Source: Geobacter sp. (GTDB lineage Bacteria > Desulfobacterota > Desulfuromonadia > Geobacterales > DSM-12255). Taken from it: 64,000 nucleotides of DNA. Under the pieces are notes generated by a model. That model did no database searches. It saw nothing but the letters and a program-made list of their open reading frames with translations, and was not told where the DNA came from. Location: positions 1 to 64,000 of the forward strand of contig VFJK01000018.1 in NCBI GenBank assembly GCA_009886125.1, in the 5' to 3' direction. A program made the position numbers and the translations under genes. Positions 6,569 to 32,595 of the stretch are shown one piece after another (positions within the stretch are counted from its first letter, which is position 1; every line of letters starts with the position of its first letter).

Positions 6569-9500
6569 TACCCTCCATTCCCAATCAGAATAAACGGTGC
6601 CCAAAAATATGGATGGGTGAAGTCGTGCCCTTCTTCTGAAGTAATTTTCCCGTTAAGCAGGCAGAGCTGCGCCTGCTGCAACGCCTCCGCTTTTGTCATT
6701 CCCGCTTCCCGCAAACGGTAGAACTCCCGCATCAACATACTGGTACTTTTGTCCTCCACTGGCCAGAGGGTCGCCATGACCGTCTTTGCCCCCTGCATCT
6801 CACCAAGATAGCCGATGCCGTCAACCATGCGCCCCTTTGTGCTGGCTGTGCCGAGACCGGTACTGCAGGCGGAGAAGGCAACCAGATCTACCCCCTTGAA
6901 CAGTGTCGGCATACATCGCAATTCGTCCATTCGTATCTTGCTGCCATCGCCGAGGAGCAGGTAGGACATGGTTTCATTGGCTGGATTCAGTTCAAAATGG
7001 CTGGCAATGTGGACGGCCTTGTAGCCTCCCTTTAGGTGTGATTCCATGGCGTCACGGGTAAATGCTTCGTCCAGCAGGATATCACCTGGGATGACACCGG
7101 TAGGTCTATCCATACTGATGATGCCTTCCAGTTCTTCCTTAACCCCCTCAAGTGCAGGGTGCCCGTCATGCTTGAGTGTTACACCCATACCTAGACCATT
7201 CCAATTTACGTGTGACTGCTGGCCGATGGTACTGTTGGTGGTGATGCAGACGTTCCGGAACTTTTCAAGAACGAACTTTTTGCCGTCATGCAGCGCAGCA
7301 AGCGGAAGGAGCCGCAGTACACCGTTCAGCATCCAGAGGATGGTGGTATAGCCGCCAGAAAGCAGTTCTTCTTCCATTGGCCGGATGATGATGTCGTACA
7401 GTTCTTGTGATAAGGCAATGCGGTCGCGGTGTGCCGAGTCTTCCCGATCTAAGAGGAGTTCCCTGAATTTGAGAACCTTGATGCCTATGTCTACGGCTTT
7501 ATGATCGGCTGAAAATGCCTTGCGTCCGTGACGAGTTGCCATGATCGTATGAAAGCTGTCCTCCGCCGTGACGGTAGAGACTGCGACCGTATTCGCATCT
7601 GAATCCGTCATATTGATAAGCTTGTATGAGTCCTGGTCTATTTGTGTTACTTCCCGTGGAGGCAGTGCTTCATGGAGATTGTCGAGGAACTCCGAAAATT
7701 CCCGATTCACCTTTTTGAGTTGTTCCCTGACTTCTGTCAATTCCTGATTTTGTTTAGGGGTGCGGTCCTTAACCTGCTTCAAACTCTCTTCTTGCTTACC
7801 TAGAGCTGACAGAGAAGTGCCAAGCTCATCGAAACGCACGACAAGCTGTGCTTCGTCATAGTTATAGGAGATGGTGCGGGTTGCAATGTCTGTTTGCCGG
7901 TCCCTGCGGAGTAGTTCAAATTGCTCCTTCTCTTTGAGCATGCCCATAACGAATTCGGCTTCGCCGTAACGACCCGCATTTATTAACATCTCGGCAAGTT
8001 CGTCGTAATCATCCGCTATGGATTTATCAAAAGAGAAAAGAGCTTCCTTGGCGATGCCTGAGACATTCTGTCGAACTTTTTGGAAGATGTTTATAGATCG
8101 TTTTTTGAGAAGAATTGCTACATCCATATTCTTATTTTTAGCAGAGAGTTGTGCAAGGGTATTTAGGCATAAGGCAATGCTCGGGTGATCTGATCCAAAC
8201 TTCTGTTCTTTTATTTTTAGCGCCCTTTGACAATATTGTTCTGCTTCGGCAAAGCGTCCGGTTTTCAGTAAAAATGCAGCAAGATTGTTGAGAGTAGCGG
8301 CGGTTTCTGGATGATCTAGGCCAAGCTTCTGTTCATTGATCGCCAGTGCGCGCTGATAATAATGCTCTGCCTCTGCTTGACGATTGGTCGCGCTATATAC
8401 TGACGCCAAATTTATAAGTGTAGTAGCTGTATCCGGATGATCTGCTCCTCGTAATTTCTCTTTGATGGCCAGAGAGCGCAGATTAAAGTTCTCTGCTTCA
8501 ACATAGCGATTCGTTGCCTGAAATATTACTGCAAGGTTGTGGAGACAATGAGCAACATTAACTTGATCGGGGCAACTGGAATTTAAGCGAATCTCCAGTG
8601 AACGTTGTAAATAAATCTCAGCTTCGGCATATAGAGCGATTTCGAAGTATACCATTGCTAGGTTGTTCAGACTGGCGGCGATGGCGCTGTGATTAGGTTC
8701 TATCGCTTTTTCTCTTATTGACAGTGCCCGTCGATAATATTGCTCTGCTTCGTTATAGCGACCGGTCTCATCACATATAATCGCAAGTCTATCCAGATTA
8801 TCTGCAACTTCTGGGGCATCCAGGCCAAGTTGCTGTTCCCTGATTGATAAGGTTTGTTGGAATATGCTCTCAGCCGAAGCATAGCGAGCAGTAGCAGTGA
8901 AAATCTTTGCCAGAAAGTAATTGCTATTGATGATATCCGGATGACCAGAACCAAGCATTTTTTCTCTGATAGCCAGTGACCGCTCGCAAAAACTTTCAGC
9001 CTCTGCATAGCGAACGGTTTTCTCGTATATTACTGCCAAATTATACAGAATCGCGGCGACATCAGAGAGATTCTTGTCTAACGAGTTTTCAAGTATCATA
9101 AGCGCATGCAGAAAAAAATTTTCTGACTCGCGAATTCGATCAGTGAAAAAGTATACTGAAGCCAGACCGCTCATGGAGATGGCTGTTTCAGGGTGATCAA
9201 GACCTAACAACTGCTCCCTGATAGCTAGCGCACGCTTATAAAAGTTTTCTGCCTCAACATAGCTCTTGGTGCTTTCGTAAACTTTTCCCAGACCATTCAG
9301 GCTAGTCGCAGTTTCTAGGTGAATAGGACCAAGTGATTGTTCTCTTATCGCAAGTGAAAGCTGGAAATACTTCTCTGCCTTATCATAACGACTGGATCTC
9401 TCATATACATCTGCCAGATTGTACAGAGCTGAAGATTTATCCAAAAGATCAAAGTCATTCAATTTATCTATGATCGACAGCGAATAAAGATAGTATCTTT

Positions 9501-9756
9501 CAGCCTCGGCATCTCGGCCAGTATTACTGTATGCAGCCGCCAAGTTTACTAGGCAAATGGCTGCTACCTGGCTCTCCGCGCCAAAGGTTTTTTCGACGTT
9601 CGGGATAAGGTCAAGCCATAATTTCTCGGCGCTTATATAGTCACCAGAATCTTGAACATCTGTTGCGACATTAATAAGTTGCACTAGGCTTTCACTATAT
9701 TTTTTGAGGCTGCCTAGTCCTTTTCTATTGGATGTGCGTCGTTGATTGCGGTGCAT
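6568..9756 (-). CDS. TPR-CHAT cysteine protease
   Basis: This 1062-residue protein has about twelve consecutive 42-residue kinesin-light-chain-type TPRs (roughly residues 30-545; a typical unit reads AEAEHYYQRALAINEQKLGL). A coiled, charged linker follows, then a C-terminal CHAT (caspase-like) domain. The catalytic dyad is visible: His in VHIASHFELN (about residue 920) and Cys in AFSACSTGLG (codon at 6865-6867). The protein ends HPYFWAPFILIGNGG, as CHAT domains usually do. I take the ATG at 9756, 2 nt past the TIR stop, with AAAGG before it, rather than the overlapping TTG at 9762. TPR-CHAT proteins are regulated proteases; in type III-E CRISPR, Csx29 is one. The CHAT part is visibly more GC-rich than the TPR part. 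Confidence 0.93.
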   Translation of the reverse strand: MHRNQRRTSNRKGLGSLKKYSESLVQLINVATDVQDSGDYISAEKLWLDLIPNVEKTFGAESQVAAICLVNLAAAYSNTGRDAEAERYYLYSLSIIDKLNDFDLLDKSSALYNLADVYERSSRYDKAEKYFQLSLAIREQSLGPIHLETATSLNGLGKVYESTKSYVEAENFYKRALAIREQLLGLDHPETAISMSGLASVYFFTDRIRESENFFLHALMILENSLDKNLSDVAAILYNLAVIYEKTVRYAEAESFCERSLAIREKMLGSGHPDIINSNYFLAKIFTATARYASAESIFQQTLSIREQQLGLDAPEVADNLDRLAIICDETGRYNEAEQYYRRALSIREKAIEPNHSAIAASLNNLAMVYFEIALYAEAEIYLQRSLEIRLNSSCPDQVNVAHCLHNLAVIFQATNRYVEAENFNLRSLAIKEKLRGADHPDTATTLINLASVYSATNRQAEAEHYYQRALAINEQKLGLDHPETAATLNNLAAFLLKTGRFAEAEQYCQRALKIKEQKFGSDHPSIALCLNTLAQLSAKNKNMDVAILLKKRSINIFQKVRQNVSGIAKEALFSFDKSIADDYDELAEMLINAGRYGEAEFVMGMLKEKEQFELLRRDRQTDIATRTISYNYDEAQLVVRFDELGTSLSALGKQEESLKQVKDRTPKQNQELTEVREQLKKVNREFSEFLDNLHEALPPREVTQIDQDSYKLINMTDSDANTVAVSTVTAEDSFHTIMATRHGRKAFSADHKAVDIGIKVLKFRELLLDREDSAHRDRIALSQELYDIIIRPMEEELLSGGYTTILWMLNGVLRLLPLAALHDGKKFVLEKFRNVCITTNSTIGQQSHVNWNGLGMGVTLKHDGHPALEGVKEELEGIISMDRPTGVIPGDILLDEAFTRDAMESHLKGGYKAVHIASHFELNPANETMSYLLLGDGSKIRMDELRCMPTLFKGVDLVAFSACSTGLGTASTKGRMVDGIGYLGEMQGAKTVMATLWPVEDKSTSMLMREFYRLREAGMTKAEALQQAQLCLLNGKITSEEGHDFTHPYFWAPFILIGNGG

Positions 9757-25678: not shown

Positions 25679-26014
25679 TTAATGGGCTACAGCCTGATTC
25701 AGGGTTTCCGCCACGAACCGGTTCAATGTCATGCCGTGCTGCGTTGCAGCAATCATTACCCGTTCATGCAGCTCAGGCGCAATCCGTACGTTGAACGATC
25801 CCTTGAACGGTTTCTCCGGCTCGCGGCCCAACTCGGCGCAGGTAGCCAGATAATCGTCCACCGCTTCATGAAATGCAGCCTCCAGGGAATCGGCATCCTG
25901 CCCTTCGTAACTTACCAGAGCTCTGATAAATTCGATCTTGCCATAAAAAATCCGGTCGTCGGAATTGTAGTGCACCGAGCCAAAGTACCCTTTATGCTTG
26001 ATCATGTCTTTCAT
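25679..26014 (-). CDS. hicB: HicB-family antitoxin
   Basis: The 111-residue antitoxin has a partial RNase-H-like HicB fold (GYFGSVHYNSDDRIFYGKIE, then LEAAFHEAVDDYLATCAELG). It ends in a ribbon-helix-helix DNA-binding part (GSFNVRIAPELHERVMIAAT). It neutralises HicA and represses the operon. The gene overlaps hicA by 4 nt (26011-26014) in the common toxin-first order. The palindrome at 26296-26315 is its likely operator. Confidence 0.92.
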   Translation of the reverse strand: MKDMIKHKGYFGSVHYNSDDRIFYGKIEFIRALVSYEGQDADSLEAAFHEAVDDYLATCAELGREPEKPFKGSFNVRIAPELHERVMIAATQHGMTLNRFVAETLNQAVAH

Positions 26015-26399: not shown

Positions 26400-26741
26400 T
26401 CAACCGTCATGTTTTGTCGCGTTGGTGGTTATCTTGAGGATGCTTTCCTGCACATCCTTGTTGGGGATGGCCCGGTAGGAGTCGAGGAGGAGTTTTTCGG
26501 AGGTATCCAGTGGCAACACTTCCTCGCCGGACATAAAGAACTCCTGAACCGGCACGGAGAGAGCGTTTGCAGCCAATTGGAGCTTTTCTGAATTCATCAT
26601 GTTTTTGCCGGATTCGTATTTGAGTAATTGCCCTCTCGTAACTCCCACAAGTTCAGCCATCTTCTCCTGGCTGATTTTCGCCCGCTCCCGCAACTCTTTC
26701 AATCTCTTGCCTATTTGTTCCGTCGTGCGAATCGTTGCCAT
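26400..26741 (-). CDS. XRE-family transcriptional regulator
   Basis: A 113-residue protein from the ATG at 26741 (GAGGGG upstream; longer frames exist). A Cro/C1-type helix-turn-helix covers about residues 8-62: IGKRLKELRERAKISQEKMA, then ELVGVTRGQLLKYESGKN. A short helical tail follows. It is divergent from the mod/res genes, and an inverted repeat lies between the two (26791-26829). This is the layout of controller proteins of restriction-modification systems, so it probably sets the timing or level of mod/res expression and its own. Confidence 0.88.
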   Translation of the reverse strand: MATIRTTEQIGKRLKELRERAKISQEKMAELVGVTRGQLLKYESGKNMMNSEKLQLAANALSVPVQEFFMSGEEVLPLDTSEKLLLDSYRAIPNKDVQESILKITTNATKHDG

Positions 26742-26790
26742 AAGCCCCTCATTTGCGAAGGAGCATACCTTGTAGCGGTTAGCAGCGAAA

Positions 26791-26829
26791 TACACCTGAA
26801 GCACACATTTATAGTATACTTGAGGTGTA
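26791..26829. promoter_or_regulatory. Operator between XRE regulator and mod genes
   Basis: TACACCTGAAG (26791-26801) and CTTGAGGTGTA (26819-26829) form an 11-bp inverted repeat with one mismatched pair and a 17-bp spacer containing TATAGTATACT. This is a plausible two-half-site operator with -10-like elements inside it, in the divergent region. Confidence 0.6.
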
Positions 26830-26903: not shown

Positions 26904-29189
26904 ATGAACAGACTGACCGAACAAGACCGAATTGAACTGATCCGCCTCCTGCAATCAGGCGAACCGATACCCATACAGTGGCGCGGGAAGCTGTTTCCTG
27001 GCGGAATGCAGAGTGTGGAGATTGGCAAGGAATACCGGCTGGAATATGCCGGGAAGATGAAGCGGGAACAGGTGCTGGCGGAGACGCCGGCGGCACCGTG
27101 GCAGTTGGTGCGCCGTTTTGCCGAGGATCGGCCCCATGGCGACGGCTGGCGCAATCTGCTTGTCTGGGGGGATAATCTTCTGGCGCTGCGCGAACTCCTG
27201 GCTGACCAGCAGGGGCCGAATCGCTACGGCACCAAAAACAAAATCAAGCTCATCTACATCGATCCCCCGTTTGCCACCAAGCAGGACTTCATGAAGGATG
27301 AAGAAAAGGCATATCGCGATAAGGTACTAGGCGCTCAATTTATTGAGTTTTTGCGAAGACGATTGATTTTGCTCCGCGAGCTCTTGGCAGATGATGGCAC
27401 AATTTACGTACACTTAGATTGGAAAAAAGGACATTACATAAAAGCCGTTTTAGATGAGGTATTCGGAGAAACAAGGTTTTTCAATGAGCTGGTATGGCGG
27501 TATTTCGGCTTTAAAAGATCTACGGCGAGGAACTTTCCCAGAAAGCACGATGTGATCTTTGCATATGGAAAGAGTGAAGATAAAAGTAGAATCTGGAACC
27601 CAGTATTCCGGGCATACTCAAAAGAATACTTAGCTCGCTGGAAGGTCGATGCAGACGGTGAACTCTACAGGGATGACGTCAATCCGACTGCAGGTGGAGC
27701 CCGTACTATCTGGCTCAAGGACATGAAAGGTGATTTGGTTGAATCTGTTTGGAGTGATATTCCTCCAGTTAATCCCGTGGCGTCAGAGAGAACAGAATAT
27801 CCTACACAAAAGCCAGAACAACTTCTTGATCGTATTATCCGTGCGTCTTCCAATGAAGATGACATAGTCCTAGACTGTTTTGCTGGCAGTGGCACGACAG
27901 CTGCCGCAGCGGAAAAACTTGGCCGGCGTTGGATTGCTATGGATTGCGGTAAGTTGGCAATATACACCATTCAAAAACGCCTATTTTCACTAATCAACAC
28001 CATTGGAGCTGGGAAAAAAGACGAAAAACTCGTCCACGACCGAGTGGAAGACTGGGATGACCACATAAAGAAAACCCCCGGCATCCTCCTCCTCACCGAA
28101 AAAGCTAAAAAAGGCGAATGCGAGGTAACCCTTGACCTGCTGGCCGACCTTGCTACGCTGATCGCCAAACACGACCTCCTCAAGAAAGGCTCGCACCTTT
28201 CCATCGCCTGCCCGGAAGACAAACTTCACATCCCGCCTGACCGGTTGGACGATGTCCAACCAGACAACGGCCCCGGCGAGAAGAGCATTACTGTTGAAGG
28301 TCAGGAATTCCGAATTTCCCTGATTGTCCCTAAAGACAAGCCGGAGAAGGAAAAACCGCTCCCGCCGAAGGAGTTTGCCCTCTACCGCGCCGGTCTCTAC
28401 GACATGGAGGCGCTGCGGCGGATGCCGTGGCAGGAGTACCGCCCCTTTGTCCTCAAGCTCTTCGGCGTCCGCGAGGAGGCCCACAACCGCTACGGCATGC
28501 AACTGGACGGCTACATCGGCACCCATTCCACGCTCATCTGGAACTATCCTGATCATCCCACCCTGACCCTTGATTACGGCTATGTGGAGAACCTCCATCA
28601 GAACCTGCGCGGCAAGAAGGGGGAACGGTTCTATGTCATTGCGCCAACAGTGGCTATGGACTTTGCCGAGGATGAAAGAGAGCATGGCGGTGCAGTCTAC
28701 GCCTTTCTCAAGGTGCCGATCTCCGTCATCATGAAGTTGATTCAGGCGCACGAGCCGGGAGCGCTCAAACAGCCGATGAGTGAAGCGGATGTGAACAATG
28801 TTATCGACGCGATCGGTTTTGATTTCATCTCCCAACCGGTGGTGCGCTACAGGGCCAGTATCAAAACCCGCGATCTGTTCCCAGAACTTGTGGTGGAGTT
28901 GAGCGAATTCCGCGCCAAGACCCTGACCACCGATCCGGAGGATTTCGCCAATTTCGAGACCTTTTCCATGGCCATGGTGGATCTCAACTATGACGGCGAT
29001 GTTTTCCGGCTGGATCGGGTTTACTGGGGCGAGGAGCTGCTGAAAGAAGCAGGCGGGCTGGAGAAGGCGAAGATCCTGGAAATCCGCATCCCCGAACAGG
29101 CGTTCAAGGGGGAGAAAATGATGGTCATCCTCTGTGACCGCTACGGGAACGAAAAGACGCTGGTCTTTGGCAAGGGGGATTTCCGATGA
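26904..29189 (+). CDS. Type III-like DNA methyltransferase subunit (Mod)
   Basis: The 761-residue protein has LIYIDPPFATKQDF (motif IV DPPF at residues 120-123), followed about 200 residues later by DCFAGSGTTAAAAEKLG (motif I, from residue 324). This order is that of beta-class adenine or N4-cytosine methyltransferases and of type III Mod proteins. A region of about 400 residues follows, longer than in minimal enzymes. The ATG at 26904 has no clear SD. Bases about 27310-28070, which encode the motif IV-motif I interval and probably the target recognition region, are visibly more AT-rich than both flanks. It overlaps res by ATGA. Confidence 0.9.
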   Translation: MNRLTEQDRIELIRLLQSGEPIPIQWRGKLFPGGMQSVEIGKEYRLEYAGKMKREQVLAETPAAPWQLVRRFAEDRPHGDGWRNLLVWGDNLLALRELLADQQGPNRYGTKNKIKLIYIDPPFATKQDFMKDEEKAYRDKVLGAQFIEFLRRRLILLRELLADDGTIYVHLDWKKGHYIKAVLDEVFGETRFFNELVWRYFGFKRSTARNFPRKHDVIFAYGKSEDKSRIWNPVFRAYSKEYLARWKVDADGELYRDDVNPTAGGARTIWLKDMKGDLVESVWSDIPPVNPVASERTEYPTQKPEQLLDRIIRASSNEDDIVLDCFAGSGTTAAAAEKLGRRWIAMDCGKLAIYTIQKRLFSLINTIGAGKKDEKLVHDRVEDWDDHIKKTPGILLLTEKAKKGECEVTLDLLADLATLIAKHDLLKKGSHLSIACPEDKLHIPPDRLDDVQPDNGPGEKSITVEGQEFRISLIVPKDKPEKEKPLPPKEFALYRAGLYDMEALRRMPWQEYRPFVLKLFGVREEAHNRYGMQLDGYIGTHSTLIWNYPDHPTLTLDYGYVENLHQNLRGKKGERFYVIAPTVAMDFAEDEREHGGAVYAFLKVPISVIMKLIQAHEPGALKQPMSEADVNNVIDAIGFDFISQPVVRYRASIKTRDLFPELVVELSEFRAKTLTTDPEDFANFETFSMAMVDLNYDGDVFRLDRVYWGEELLKEAGGLEKAKILEIRIPEQAFKGEKMMVILCDRYGNEKTLVFGKGDFR

Positions 29190-31780
29190 GTGTTACCTTC
29201 CGTATCAGCGATCAGATCCTGAAACTGGATGATGTTAGCGATGCCACGGTCGCGGTGGTGCATAAGTACGACGCTTTCCTCAACCTGCTCCATACCGGCA
29301 ACTACGCCTTTCTGCGCGACGCGGCCCGTGAAGCGCTCCGTTTTCTGGTCTCCGCCAAGTACCCCGATCTGGAACGGCTGGCACGGGAGAATTGGAGTCG
29401 GCCAGAGTTGGCCAAGCGCCATGCCTCCATCGATGCACTGCTGGGTAAAATGCCGCTGCGGGACCGGAAGGCGGCAACGCTGGATATCGCCACCGGCGGT
29501 GGCAAGAGCTTTCTGATGTACGGCCTGGCCGCCATTGCCCTGGCCGAGGGACTGGTTGACCGGGTGTTGGTGCTCTGCCCGTCGTTGACCATTGAAGACG
29601 GTTTGCTGGAGAAGTTCAACGCCCTGGCCGGTAATCAGGAGCTGACGGCCATCATGAAGGAGCTGGGCGCTGTTGTAGCCATTCCGGGGATCAAGCGGGG
29701 TAATGAGACGATTCAGCAGGGCGACATCTGCATCGAAAATATCCATGCGGTCTATACTAATGCCGGTTCTTCCATTGCCGACAGCTTCAAGGGGCATGGG
29801 GGGCGGACGCTGGTCCTGAACGACGAGGCGCACCACCTGTTCAGCCCCGATGACAGCGACGAAAGCTCCATGAAAAAGTGGCTGCAATTTCTGGTCAGCC
29901 CTGAGTACGGCTTCCGCTACCTCATCAATGTCACCGGCACCCCCTACACCGGCAACGACTATTTCCCGGACGTGATTCACCGTTTCGGCCTTAAGCAGGC
30001 TATTGAATCAAAGGTCATCAAGAAGCCGGATTATGTGCTGGAAGAGACCCACAAGAAGCAGAGCTGGGACAAGATCTACGCTGTGCATCAGGAGAATGTG
30101 AAGGAGTATGGCACCAAGCTGCGCCCCATCTCCATTGTCATTACCAAGGATATTGCCGAGTGCGTGGAGCAGTGGCAAAGCCTGGTTGCCTATCTGGTGA
30201 AGAAAGAGAAGATCAACTCCGCCGAGGCTGAGAAAAAGGTAATCTGGGTTACCTCCGGCATCCCATCAAACAAGGCTGCCAAGGCCCGTGTAGAGGCGGC
30301 CTATAGCCCACGGGACAGCAAGGACTCACCCGATAAACGGCGCAAAGAGAACCTGACTGCGCTGAAAAAAGTGGATGATCCGGCCAGTCCGGTGGAGTGG
30401 ATTGTCTCAGTCAGTATGCTCACCGAGGGGTGGGACGTGAAAAATGTTTTCCAGATCGTTCCTCACGATTCGCGGGCCTTCAACTCCAAACTCCTTATCG
30501 CCCAGGTGCTGGGGCGCGGCCTGCGGGTGCCGTCCTGTCTGGAGATACAACCACTGGTGAAGGTGACCAATCACGAAGCCTGGACCGATGAAATTGCCAA
30601 CCTGCTCAAAGACGTTCTGGAAGTGGAGAACACCCTTTCCTGGGGGTTTGACAGCAGGCGGGAGGAATACATTTTCCCGCTCCATAATCTGAGCTATGAA
30701 CTGGTCGAACAGACGGTGGAAACCAAGAAACAGAAGGCGATGGACATAAAGCTGGTTTTGAAGCCCCAGAGCCTAAAGAGTACCGAGTATGTGACCTTTT
30801 CCGAGAGCGGCACGCTGGCAATGGAGATCACCCACGAGAACACCGAAGAGATCGAATATGCGGTCTGCACTTTGCACGATTTCATCAACGAAAAGGACAA
30901 GAAAGTCGGCGAGAAGTGGCCGAAGAACCGAATCAGAAAACTTATCAAGGATGCTCTGATTGTTGGTGGCTATGATGATACTTTCCTGAGCCGGGAGAAC
31001 CTGTCACTGGTACAACAGGCGTTTGGCCCACTTTTCCGGGACACGGACAAAGAACACCCACGCATGACCAATACGGCGAAGTCGCTATTCATGGTCGATT
31101 ACCGGGATTCAATGCGCCAATCATTTTCGGAAAGCCGGGTGAAAGAGAGTGGCGCGGTTTATCATGTGGATGGTGATGTCAAGCCGTTTGGCAAGGATGA
31201 AACCCATCTTTGGGATCAATACTGTAAGTGGGTAAAAATGGCTGAGGCGTTCGGCAATGAAACCCCCGAAAATATCCTTGAGATAACACGGCGGCTACAT
31301 ATGGTTGACGCCAACAGATTTAAAACCCCGTCCAATGTGCTCTATGCCAGCCATGAACCCGAACGGAAATTCAGTGACCTGCTGTTCGAGGTCAGTAGTC
31401 TGATTGAAGCGTTCATCAAGCCGCCGGACCGTGGGTGCTACTCATTTCCCTATTCCTACAAGCCGGCCAAAACCGGCAAAACTCATGCTGTAAATGAATT
31501 CTTCAATCCTGACTATTTCATCCGGCTCAAGGATTCCCACGATGTGATGGTTGTGGAGATCAAGCATGACGGCGATGATTCCAGCCGAAACAAGGCCAAG
31601 TATCGCGATGGCAAGGCGCATTTTGAACGGTTGAATGAGGCACTGGTGGCAGCGGACGAGCCGTGGCGATATCACTTCTATTTTCTGTCACCGGAGGACT
31701 ACACCGGGTTTTTTGATCGGGTGCGGGATGGAAAGTTCAAAGGGTGGAGTGCGGGGTTGATGGTGGAGTTGGGGAAATAG
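29186..31780 (+). CDS. Type III-like restriction subunit (Res), helicase-nuclease
   Basis: The 864-residue protein has a Walker A (IATGGGKSFLMYG, about residue 104) and DEAH-box (NDEAHHLF, residue 213), then a superfamily 2 second half with SMLTEGWDVKNVFQIVPH and VLGRGLRVP. Near the C-terminus a PD-ExK nuclease site is visible: NPDYFIRL followed by VVEIKHDGDD (about residues 775-795). It therefore has all parts needed to translocate on and cut unmodified DNA with Mod. Start overlaps mod by 4 nt. No frameshift is seen, so the system looks intact. Confidence 0.92.
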   Translation: MSVTFRISDQILKLDDVSDATVAVVHKYDAFLNLLHTGNYAFLRDAAREALRFLVSAKYPDLERLARENWSRPELAKRHASIDALLGKMPLRDRKAATLDIATGGGKSFLMYGLAAIALAEGLVDRVLVLCPSLTIEDGLLEKFNALAGNQELTAIMKELGAVVAIPGIKRGNETIQQGDICIENIHAVYTNAGSSIADSFKGHGGRTLVLNDEAHHLFSPDDSDESSMKKWLQFLVSPEYGFRYLINVTGTPYTGNDYFPDVIHRFGLKQAIESKVIKKPDYVLEETHKKQSWDKIYAVHQENVKEYGTKLRPISIVITKDIAECVEQWQSLVAYLVKKEKINSAEAEKKVIWVTSGIPSNKAAKARVEAAYSPRDSKDSPDKRRKENLTALKKVDDPASPVEWIVSVSMLTEGWDVKNVFQIVPHDSRAFNSKLLIAQVLGRGLRVPSCLEIQPLVKVTNHEAWTDEIANLLKDVLEVENTLSWGFDSRREEYIFPLHNLSYELVEQTVETKKQKAMDIKLVLKPQSLKSTEYVTFSESGTLAMEITHENTEEIEYAVCTLHDFINEKDKKVGEKWPKNRIRKLIKDALIVGGYDDTFLSRENLSLVQQAFGPLFRDTDKEHPRMTNTAKSLFMVDYRDSMRQSFSESRVKESGAVYHVDGDVKPFGKDETHLWDQYCKWVKMAEAFGNETPENILEITRRLHMVDANRFKTPSNVLYASHEPERKFSDLLFEVSSLIEAFIKPPDRGCYSFPYSYKPAKTGKTHAVNEFFNPDYFIRLKDSHDVMVVEIKHDGDDSSRNKAKYRDGKAHFERLNEALVAADEPWRYHFYFLSPEDYTGFFDRVRDGKFKGWSAGLMVELGK

Positions 31781-31954: not shown

Positions 31955-32188
31955 ATGAACTCAACTGTAACGGTAAAATATCAAACTACCATTCCCAAAG
32001 CTGTGCGGGAGCAACTGGGCATTGCCATTAATGATGCTCTTGAGTGGGTTGTTGAAAAGGGGAAGGTTGTTGTGTATCCCGTGCACACCAGTTTTCTCGG
32101 ATATCGCGGCAGTGTGAAAACCGGGGCAGGTGATATTGCTGCTGATATTCAGACTGCACGAGAGAGTCGCCTGGAGAAGTATCGGTGA
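31955..32188 (+). CDS. vapB: AbrB-type antitoxin (VapB)
   Basis: A 77-residue swapped-hairpin DNA-binding protein: MNSTVTVKYQTTIPKAVREQ is the AbrB/MazE signature. The C-terminal helix (DIAADIQTARESRLEKYR) would wrap the toxin. GGAGG lies 6 nt before the ATG at 31955; a TTG at 31940 is less likely. It overlaps vapC by 4 nt and binds the inverted repeat upstream. Confidence 0.9.
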   Translation: MNSTVTVKYQTTIPKAVREQLGIAINDALEWVVEKGKVVVYPVHTSFLGYRGSVKTGAGDIAADIQTARESRLEKYR

Positions 32189-32595
32189 AAAAATATATTA
32201 TCGACACCAACGCCCTGATCTCTTTTGTCACTGATAGAAACCCGGCCCAGCAGGAAATTGTTGCTCCGCTTTTTGAAACAGCTTCCCGTTTGAAGTGCAT
32301 CCTTGTATGTCATCAATTCGTTTTGACGGAATTTGTTTTCGTCATGGATAAAGTGTATGGAACGCCAAAAGAGACCATCAACTCCATGCTCCGCGACTTT
32401 GTTGCCATGCCGGGCGTCGAAGTGTGCCAGCAAACTGACTTTACGGTTTTACTCTCCCTCTGGCCGGCGAAAATTGCAGACTTTGGCGACGCGCTGATTG
32501 CCGCAACAGGCAAAGCGATGAAAGGGGCAACCATAGTCACTTTTGATCTGAAGTTTAAATCCGGATTGAAGAAGCTTGGACTGGATTCGCTGTAA
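32185..32595 (+). CDS. vapC: PIN-domain ribonuclease toxin (VapC)
   Basis: A 136-residue PIN-domain nuclease starting at a GTG that overlaps the vapB stop. The acidic metal-binding residues are visible in KKYIIDTNALISFVTD (Asp), FVLTEFVFVM (Glu) and ADFGDALIAA (Asp), with the last Asp in IVTFDLKFK. VapC toxins cut tRNA or rRNA when freed from VapB. All catalytic residues are present, so it looks functional. Confidence 0.92.
   Translation: MKKYIIDTNALISFVTDRNPAQQEIVAPLFETASRLKCILVCHQFVLTEFVFVMDKVYGTPKETINSMLRDFVAMPGVEVCQQTDFTVLLSLWPAKIADFGDALIAATGKAMKGATIVTFDLKFKSGLKKLGLDSL

Follow-up and report, generated by a model that had tools for sequence, protein, structure and literature searches.

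The stretch of DNA analysed here (the window; 64,000 nucleotides of contig VFJK01000018.1 of Geobacter sp.) carries a gene pair, mod and res, which by its testable features looks like a working type III restriction-modification operon (Table 1). In the mod product, these features are the PF01555 domain, DPPF placed ahead of FAGSGTT, a variable region between the two strings, and Mods as the top structural matches. We take DPPF to be motif IV and FAGSGTT to be motif I, the latter presumably having a role in SAM binding. The adjoining Res has a helicase motor and a putative nuclease motif, with its NPD and EIK strings being read, on our assumption, as a PD-(D/E)xK nuclease. Type III systems methylate one strand of an asymmetric site, and their cleavage requires ATP and two sites.

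The best solved relative of the window Mod by sequence is EcoP15I Mod (4zcf; E 3.6e-17). The EcoP15I system is like that of the window in having motif IV before motif I and a Mod together with a helicase-type Res, although the two Mods are 27% identical over the aligned part. For Res, sequence comparison with PDB chains gave no match at E 0.01. The structural model of the window Mod had its top three matches in 6k0w (chain labelled Mod; Z 22.1, rmsd 5.7, 281 residues), 4zcf (Z 21.7, rmsd 3.5, 252 residues), and Mbo45V Mod 7dsu (Z 21.4, rmsd 4.2, 271 residues), all three being tied within 1 Z. The mean pLDDT of the model is 63.8 and falls below 50 at aa 227-301, so that it backs the chassis and nothing firm on the recognition region.

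A relative of the divergent HTH regulator, 36% identical, also sits upstream of mod in a related locus (L005), and the regulator may control the mod-res operon. Toxin-antitoxin-like neighbours are found on both sides: a HicB gene (by Pfam) at 25679-26014 before mod, and an AbrB-like frame (by eye) and a PIN-domain gene (by Pfam) at 31955-32595 after res.

Table 1. Features of the mod-res locus and of loci that hold a Mod head only. Positions are those of the window unless a locus is named.
Feature	Position	Strand	Remarks
Divergent HTH regulator	26400..26804	-	HTH_19, E 6e-13
Type III DNA methyltransferase gene mod	26904..29189	+	761 aa; stop codon within coordinates
N6_N4_Mtase domain (Pfam PF01555)	aa 114-357 of mod product		E 6e-46
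DPPF, taken as catalytic motif IV	27261..27272	+	From translation
AT-rich block, putative imported tract	27297..28028	+	aa 132-375; two-change-point fit
Putative target recognition region	27471..27779	+	aa ~190-292, 103 residues; low identity and long indels
YPTQKP block, conserved	27798..27815	+	From alignment; protein similarity to relatives restarts here
FAGSGTT, taken as motif I	27879..27899	+	From translation; within AT-rich block
Res subunit gene res	29186..31780	+	864 aa; 4 bp overlap with mod
Helicase-type ATPase with ResIII domain	res product		PF04851, E 1.3e-13; nuclease-like string C-terminal
Strings in res	GGGKS 29495; DEAH 29822; TGTP 29933; NPD 31505; EIK 31556
Mod-head remnant, L042	4998-5751
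Mod-head remnant, L041	5001-5351
Mod-head remnant, L044	5001-5399
Mod-head remnant, L045	4933-5139
Mod-head remnant, L043	3641-4518
Mod-head remnant, L040	4992-5783

An earlier note on this DNA had pointed to AT-rich codons at about 27310-28070 of mod between GC-rich flanks, and a sliding-window analysis of GC3 bears this out. In 50-codon windows, GC3 is 0.62-0.76 at window starts 26904-27144, falls to 0.28-0.58 at starts 27234-27984, and rises again to 0.62-0.92 from 28014 onward. When two change points were fitted, with Met and Trp codons excluded, the borders of the block were placed at 27297 and 28028, with GC3 of 0.37 inside vs 0.71 outside and a likelihood ratio of 76 (maximum of 100 permutations, 24). 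The lowest 100-codon GC3 in mod, 0.33, ties for the lowest among 40 long ORFs of the window. The same minimum, to two decimals, is found in a 1062-codon ORF at 6571-9756 on the minus strand, whose GC3 is 0.47. The segment had been described as running between motif IV and motif I. It does start just after motif IV, but motif I is included and the block extends past it. Because the YPTQKP block and motif I fall inside, the AT-rich block is wider than the recognition part: it exceeds the recognition region by about 58 residues on the upstream side and 83 on the downstream side, taking in protein-conserved sequence, and the recognition region makes up under half of it. At residues conserved in all four relatives compared, GC3 is 0.37 in the block without the recognition region (n=90) vs 0.74 in the outer parts of mod (n=250). 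Thus, weak protein conservation was ruled out as the cause of the low GC3, and amino-acid make-up was ruled out as well through a codon-usage correction.

Relatives of the Mod were obtained by whole-protein searches from G039 (L005), Geomonas edaphica (L035, the same locus as L006), Verrucomicrobia MAGs (L034, L036), a Woesebacteria MAG (L039), and a Desulfobulbaceae MAG in which mod is spread over two contigs (L038, L037). For the outer parts (aa 1-113 and 388-761), identity to the window Mod is 65-88% in L005, L006, L034, L036, and L038. At aa 190-292, identity in five same-family relatives is 32-39% by pairwise alignment and 29-39% in a multiple alignment, and the region has 103 residues in the window Mod vs 139-168 in the five relatives, with long indels. 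The parts in between (aa 114-189 and 293-387) show identities of 0.71-0.95 in same-family relatives, with 85-89% at aa 136-189. In L005, identity over aa 1-113, 190-292, and 388-761 is 0.85, 0.36, and 0.81. In the Desulfobulbaceae relative, L038 has 0.88 in the outer part, 0.39 in the centre, and 0.76 in the C-terminal part over the 51 residues up to the contig end, and over aa 432-761 its partner contig L037 reaches 86% identity. An allele comparison for constant flanks with differing centres, proposed earlier as a check, has given that very pattern in the nearest Mods, L005 and L006/L035, whose outer parts are 81-85% identical to those of the window Mod and whose recognition regions are 36-38% identical.

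The loss of similarity goes further at synonymous sites. Codon matches were scored at amino acids identical in the window Mod and a relative, and the excess over chance was compared between aa 136-387 and the rest of the protein. For L038 and L037 together, the excess is 0.43 outside vs 0.03 inside (Fisher p 3e-9); it is 0.24 vs 0.03 for L005 (p 1e-4) and 0.12 vs 0.02 for L036 (p 1e-3). The contrast is weak for L035 (0.22 vs 0.07, p 0.03), and L034 has nearly no excess even outside (0.04 vs -0.04, p 2e-4). The excess outside is thus clear in four of the five relatives (0.12-0.43), and that inside is near chance for all five. Despite its protein identity, the centre of mod has hardly any synonymous ancestry in common with these five. 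The borders are less uniform. The best-fit inner blocks from synonymous matches are aa 91-357 for L005, aa 132-505 for L036, and aa 192-368 for L038, which disagree with the GC3 borders at one end or both; the block of L034 (aa 141-383) is the only one agreeing at both ends, and for L035 the best two-change-point fit lies elsewhere, at aa 700-725.

The recognition region has its closest affinity outside this family. Among the matches listed, its best one in the plasmid collection is 57.5% identical over 113 aa and belongs to a Mod encoded by conjugative plasmids from Rhizorhabdus wittichii and Xanthobacter dioxanivorans (Alphaproteobacteria), and at least 13 records of the collection were matched at E 1e-5 or better. 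A protein identity of 57.5% means that this is not a recent direct transfer. The plasmid Mod is non-orthologous (L061; identity to the window Mod at aa 1-113, 190-292, and 388-761 of 0.33, 0.56, and 0.27). Among 53 other Mods, it is the best partner of the recognition region, with an alignment score of 323 vs 113 for the next, and for the C-terminal part L005 and L006 rank first as partners. No direct donor DNA was found among the matches listed from plasmid, phage, and viral-contig collections and from the genomes of 96 relatives, and the 57.5% match, the best for the recognition region, is one at the protein level only.

The plasmids themselves offer a natural replicate of a centre swap. Identity between L061 and L139 is 95.2% as far as about aa 50 of mod and 90.4% beyond about aa 317, and the stretch between these points gives no blastn match. 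Together with L141 and L142, they are alphaproteobacterial plasmids of one replicon cluster that have the same mod locus with exchanged centres. The mod copy of L141 is annotated as two pieces, and the annotated gene of L142 is without the mod head.

Six other loci carry a Mod head only, with matches of 61-126 aa that are 67-90% identical. A Res tail lies close behind the Mod head in L042 and L043 by tblastn; by eye, a Res-like tail is present in L041, L044, and L045, and none was seen in L040. The core of the operon looks deleted in these loci, with both ends retained and with differing breakpoints, though all of them are MAGs and this may be an artefact of assembly. Further on, L042 (5785-7074) and L045 (5227-6516) also encode a 430-aa ATPase-like protein (AAA by eye) with 97.7% mutual identity, and a fragment between the Mod head and Res tail of L042 (5274-5609) is presumably DUF4276-like.

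We read mod as a mosaic in which a tract of about 730 bp was imported from an AT-richer Mod of the family, probably giving a new specificity, and we put the probability of this reading at roughly 0.86. What is established for the gene is the block with its GC3 borders, the loss of synonymous ancestry shared with several relatives, and a recognition region whose affinity is foreign. The tract, which starts directly behind motif IV and ends beyond motif I, would have come from a Mod of the same family with AT-richer DNA and entered through homologous recombination, with crossovers within stretches encoding conserved catalytic motifs; both this class of donor and the crossover mechanism are what we infer from the pattern. 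It would have brought in a recognition region of the type now also present on alphaproteobacterial conjugative plasmids, and the outer Mod parts and Res would have been retained. With these parts retained, the enzyme would keep its partner, and very probably it reads a different DNA site than before, as far as sequence can tell. Import into the window lineage, rather than into the relatives, is the presumed direction; since the centres of the relatives are AT-shifted too, the exchange seen in any one pair may have taken place in either of its members, and a recent import need not follow from the AT content of the mod centre. The proposal that recognition was replaced by recombination is accordingly kept on the ground of sequence incongruence and synonymous saturation, not of composition.

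Composition had been offered as the sign of import, and this part does not stand, as homologues largely have the same profile. A central GC3 dip as in the window mod is found in L005, L035, and L038, and a weaker one in L034 and L036. When GC3 was compared with an expectation from the amino acids of the region and the codon usage of its flanks, the recognition region fell below expectation in 50 of 54 Mods (mean -0.20), as it did in 19 of 20 groups of Mods with similar recognition regions. By source, these were 36/36 from genomes of the window's phylum, 4/4 from named genome contigs, 8/11 from plasmids, 1/2 from viral contigs, and the window mod; the Mods counted are not independent and are mostly of one phylum. 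Control ORFs in the final run had a mean of -0.008, with 73 of 153 below expectation. In 40 of the 54 Mod genes (16 expected), the 100-codon window of lowest GC3 has its centre within the recognition region.

This collection was built in steps, the first sets being exploratory. A first pattern gave 2 genes. A second gave 26; the length filter left 22, with 21 below the flank mean. Changing the pattern and raising the minimum length yielded 23 genes, and among the 21 analysed, 20 lay below expectation; in the run with the narrower pattern, 143 control ORFs were themselves slightly low (mean -0.043, p 0.003, 30/143 below -0.15). The final pattern gave 47 genes, with 43 of 44 analysed below expectation and controls at a mean of -0.01 (12/116 below -0.15), and with more loci it gave 58 genes, 54 of them analysed. 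Sixteen plasmid regions (L136-L151) were added after the pattern had been seen, nine at first and then seven mostly from AT-rich hosts. From this later set, L138, L141, L142, L148, L149, and L150 were dropped before the count, and the other 10 of 16 satisfied the filter for motif and length. Of these 10, 7 fell below expectation; Curtobacterium (+0.04), Mucilaginibacter (+0.13), and Limosilactobacillus (+0.03) did not.

AT-richness is thus a general trait of recognition cassettes and no signature of one recent event here, and with a shift so general, composition alone proves no single transfer. When cassette GC3 was regressed on the flank expectation, the slope was 0.48 (standard error 0.09) vs 0.97 in the 153 control ORFs. 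Tentatively, and with somewhat less than even odds, recognition cassettes of bacterial DNA methyltransferases may as a class have an AT-lean synonymous composition of their own, with a fixed point near GC3 0.2 and following the host only by about half. Its cause would be either circulation in a shared, AT-rich mobile pool or, in cassettes too unlike other alleles for recombination, evasion of GC-biased conversion.

The same trait feeds the strongest alternative, in which the exchange is old and the cassettes, too divergent to recombine, are no longer reached by GC-biased gene conversion or codon selection and settle by drift at an AT-rich mutational balance. The halved slope agrees with it, as does the finding that cassettes of AT-rich hosts (expectation below 0.35) have no clear dip, 3 of 6 being below expectation. 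Type I HsdS genes are low too, with GC3 below that of neighbouring long ORFs (taken without identification by name) in 23 of 28 usable loci out of 30 (L152-L181). An AT-rich donor pool would give an equal slope, so that pool and equilibrium are inseparable from the slope. What argues against equilibrium as the account of mod is the extent of its block over protein-conserved sequence on both sides of the recognition region, and we hold this alternative to be unlikely, at about one chance in four.

Import of a tract also has to be weighed against the absence of any recombination, with the recognition region evolving fast in place and its composition set by amino-acid make-up, weak codon selection, or relaxed constraint. 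A shift in so many Mods makes a common local cause conceivable, but the shift remains after amino-acid correction, the low GC3 extends to fully conserved residues of the block outside the recognition region, and evolution in place would not bring the recognition region nearer to a non-orthologous Mod than to orthologues; it is thus quite improbable. Least probable is programmed switching of mod within a cell line by silent cassettes, inversion, or simple-sequence repeats. Phase variation is familiar from type III Mods (passages of PMC3311624), but such switching is rejected here: 26904-29189 holds no tandem repeat scoring 30 or higher (three short duplications of 9-12 bp are all in res), no repeat pair was found bracketing the centre of mod, and the recognition region has one copy in the window's own genome, a 192-contig draft, among the matches listed.

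Replacement of the module in mod by import is a known route and fits the exchange described for type III recognition domains. Movement of these domains between non-orthologous Mods was reportedly documented, very likely by Furuta and Kobayashi in 2012, a study that PMC4176335 lists. In the relevant passages on modA genes of Neisseria and Haemophilus, recognition domains are replaced en bloc, some from other species; alleles have conserved 5' and 3' parts with a highly variable centre, and identity extends beyond the domain (PMC3311624). The modA12 recognition domain has lower GC, which was taken as transfer, and DNA uptake sequences were proposed there to aid exchange of these phase-variable genes (PMC3311624). 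As far as these passages go, the window mod is like modA in its constant ends, variable centre, and low-GC recognition domain (modA12), and unlike it in being without a repeat tract and in lying outside Neisseria and Haemophilus, with searched relatives that include a Geomonas edaphica match. According to passages of another study, type III recognition domains move from one gene to another that is not its orthologue, with recombination proposed at the sequences for conserved methyltransferase motifs (PMC3983042). The window mod likewise has a recognition domain in common with a non-orthologous Mod, but that case is from Helicobacter pylori, whereas the window mod shares its domain with alphaproteobacterial plasmids. 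Whole-cassette exchange, and lower GC in one cassette, have thus been described already in the passages of PMC3311624 and PMC3983042, and lower GC of one whole R-M gene pair in those of PMC10273834. A general AT shift of recognition domains does not appear in the passages of PMC3311624, PMC3983042, PMC4176335, PMC10273834, and PMC12707154. Since a low-GC recognition region is so common in the sampled Mods, it is no evidence of transfer by itself, the use made of it in the passages of PMC3311624.

The window mod is a clear case of a retained chassis with a probably changed recognition part, outside the pathogens of those papers. The general AT shift lends itself to testing and has a bearing on the maintenance of bacterial GC content. 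If it does arise through escape from GC-biased conversion, recognition cassettes would be a natural gauge of the effect of that conversion on bacterial genes.
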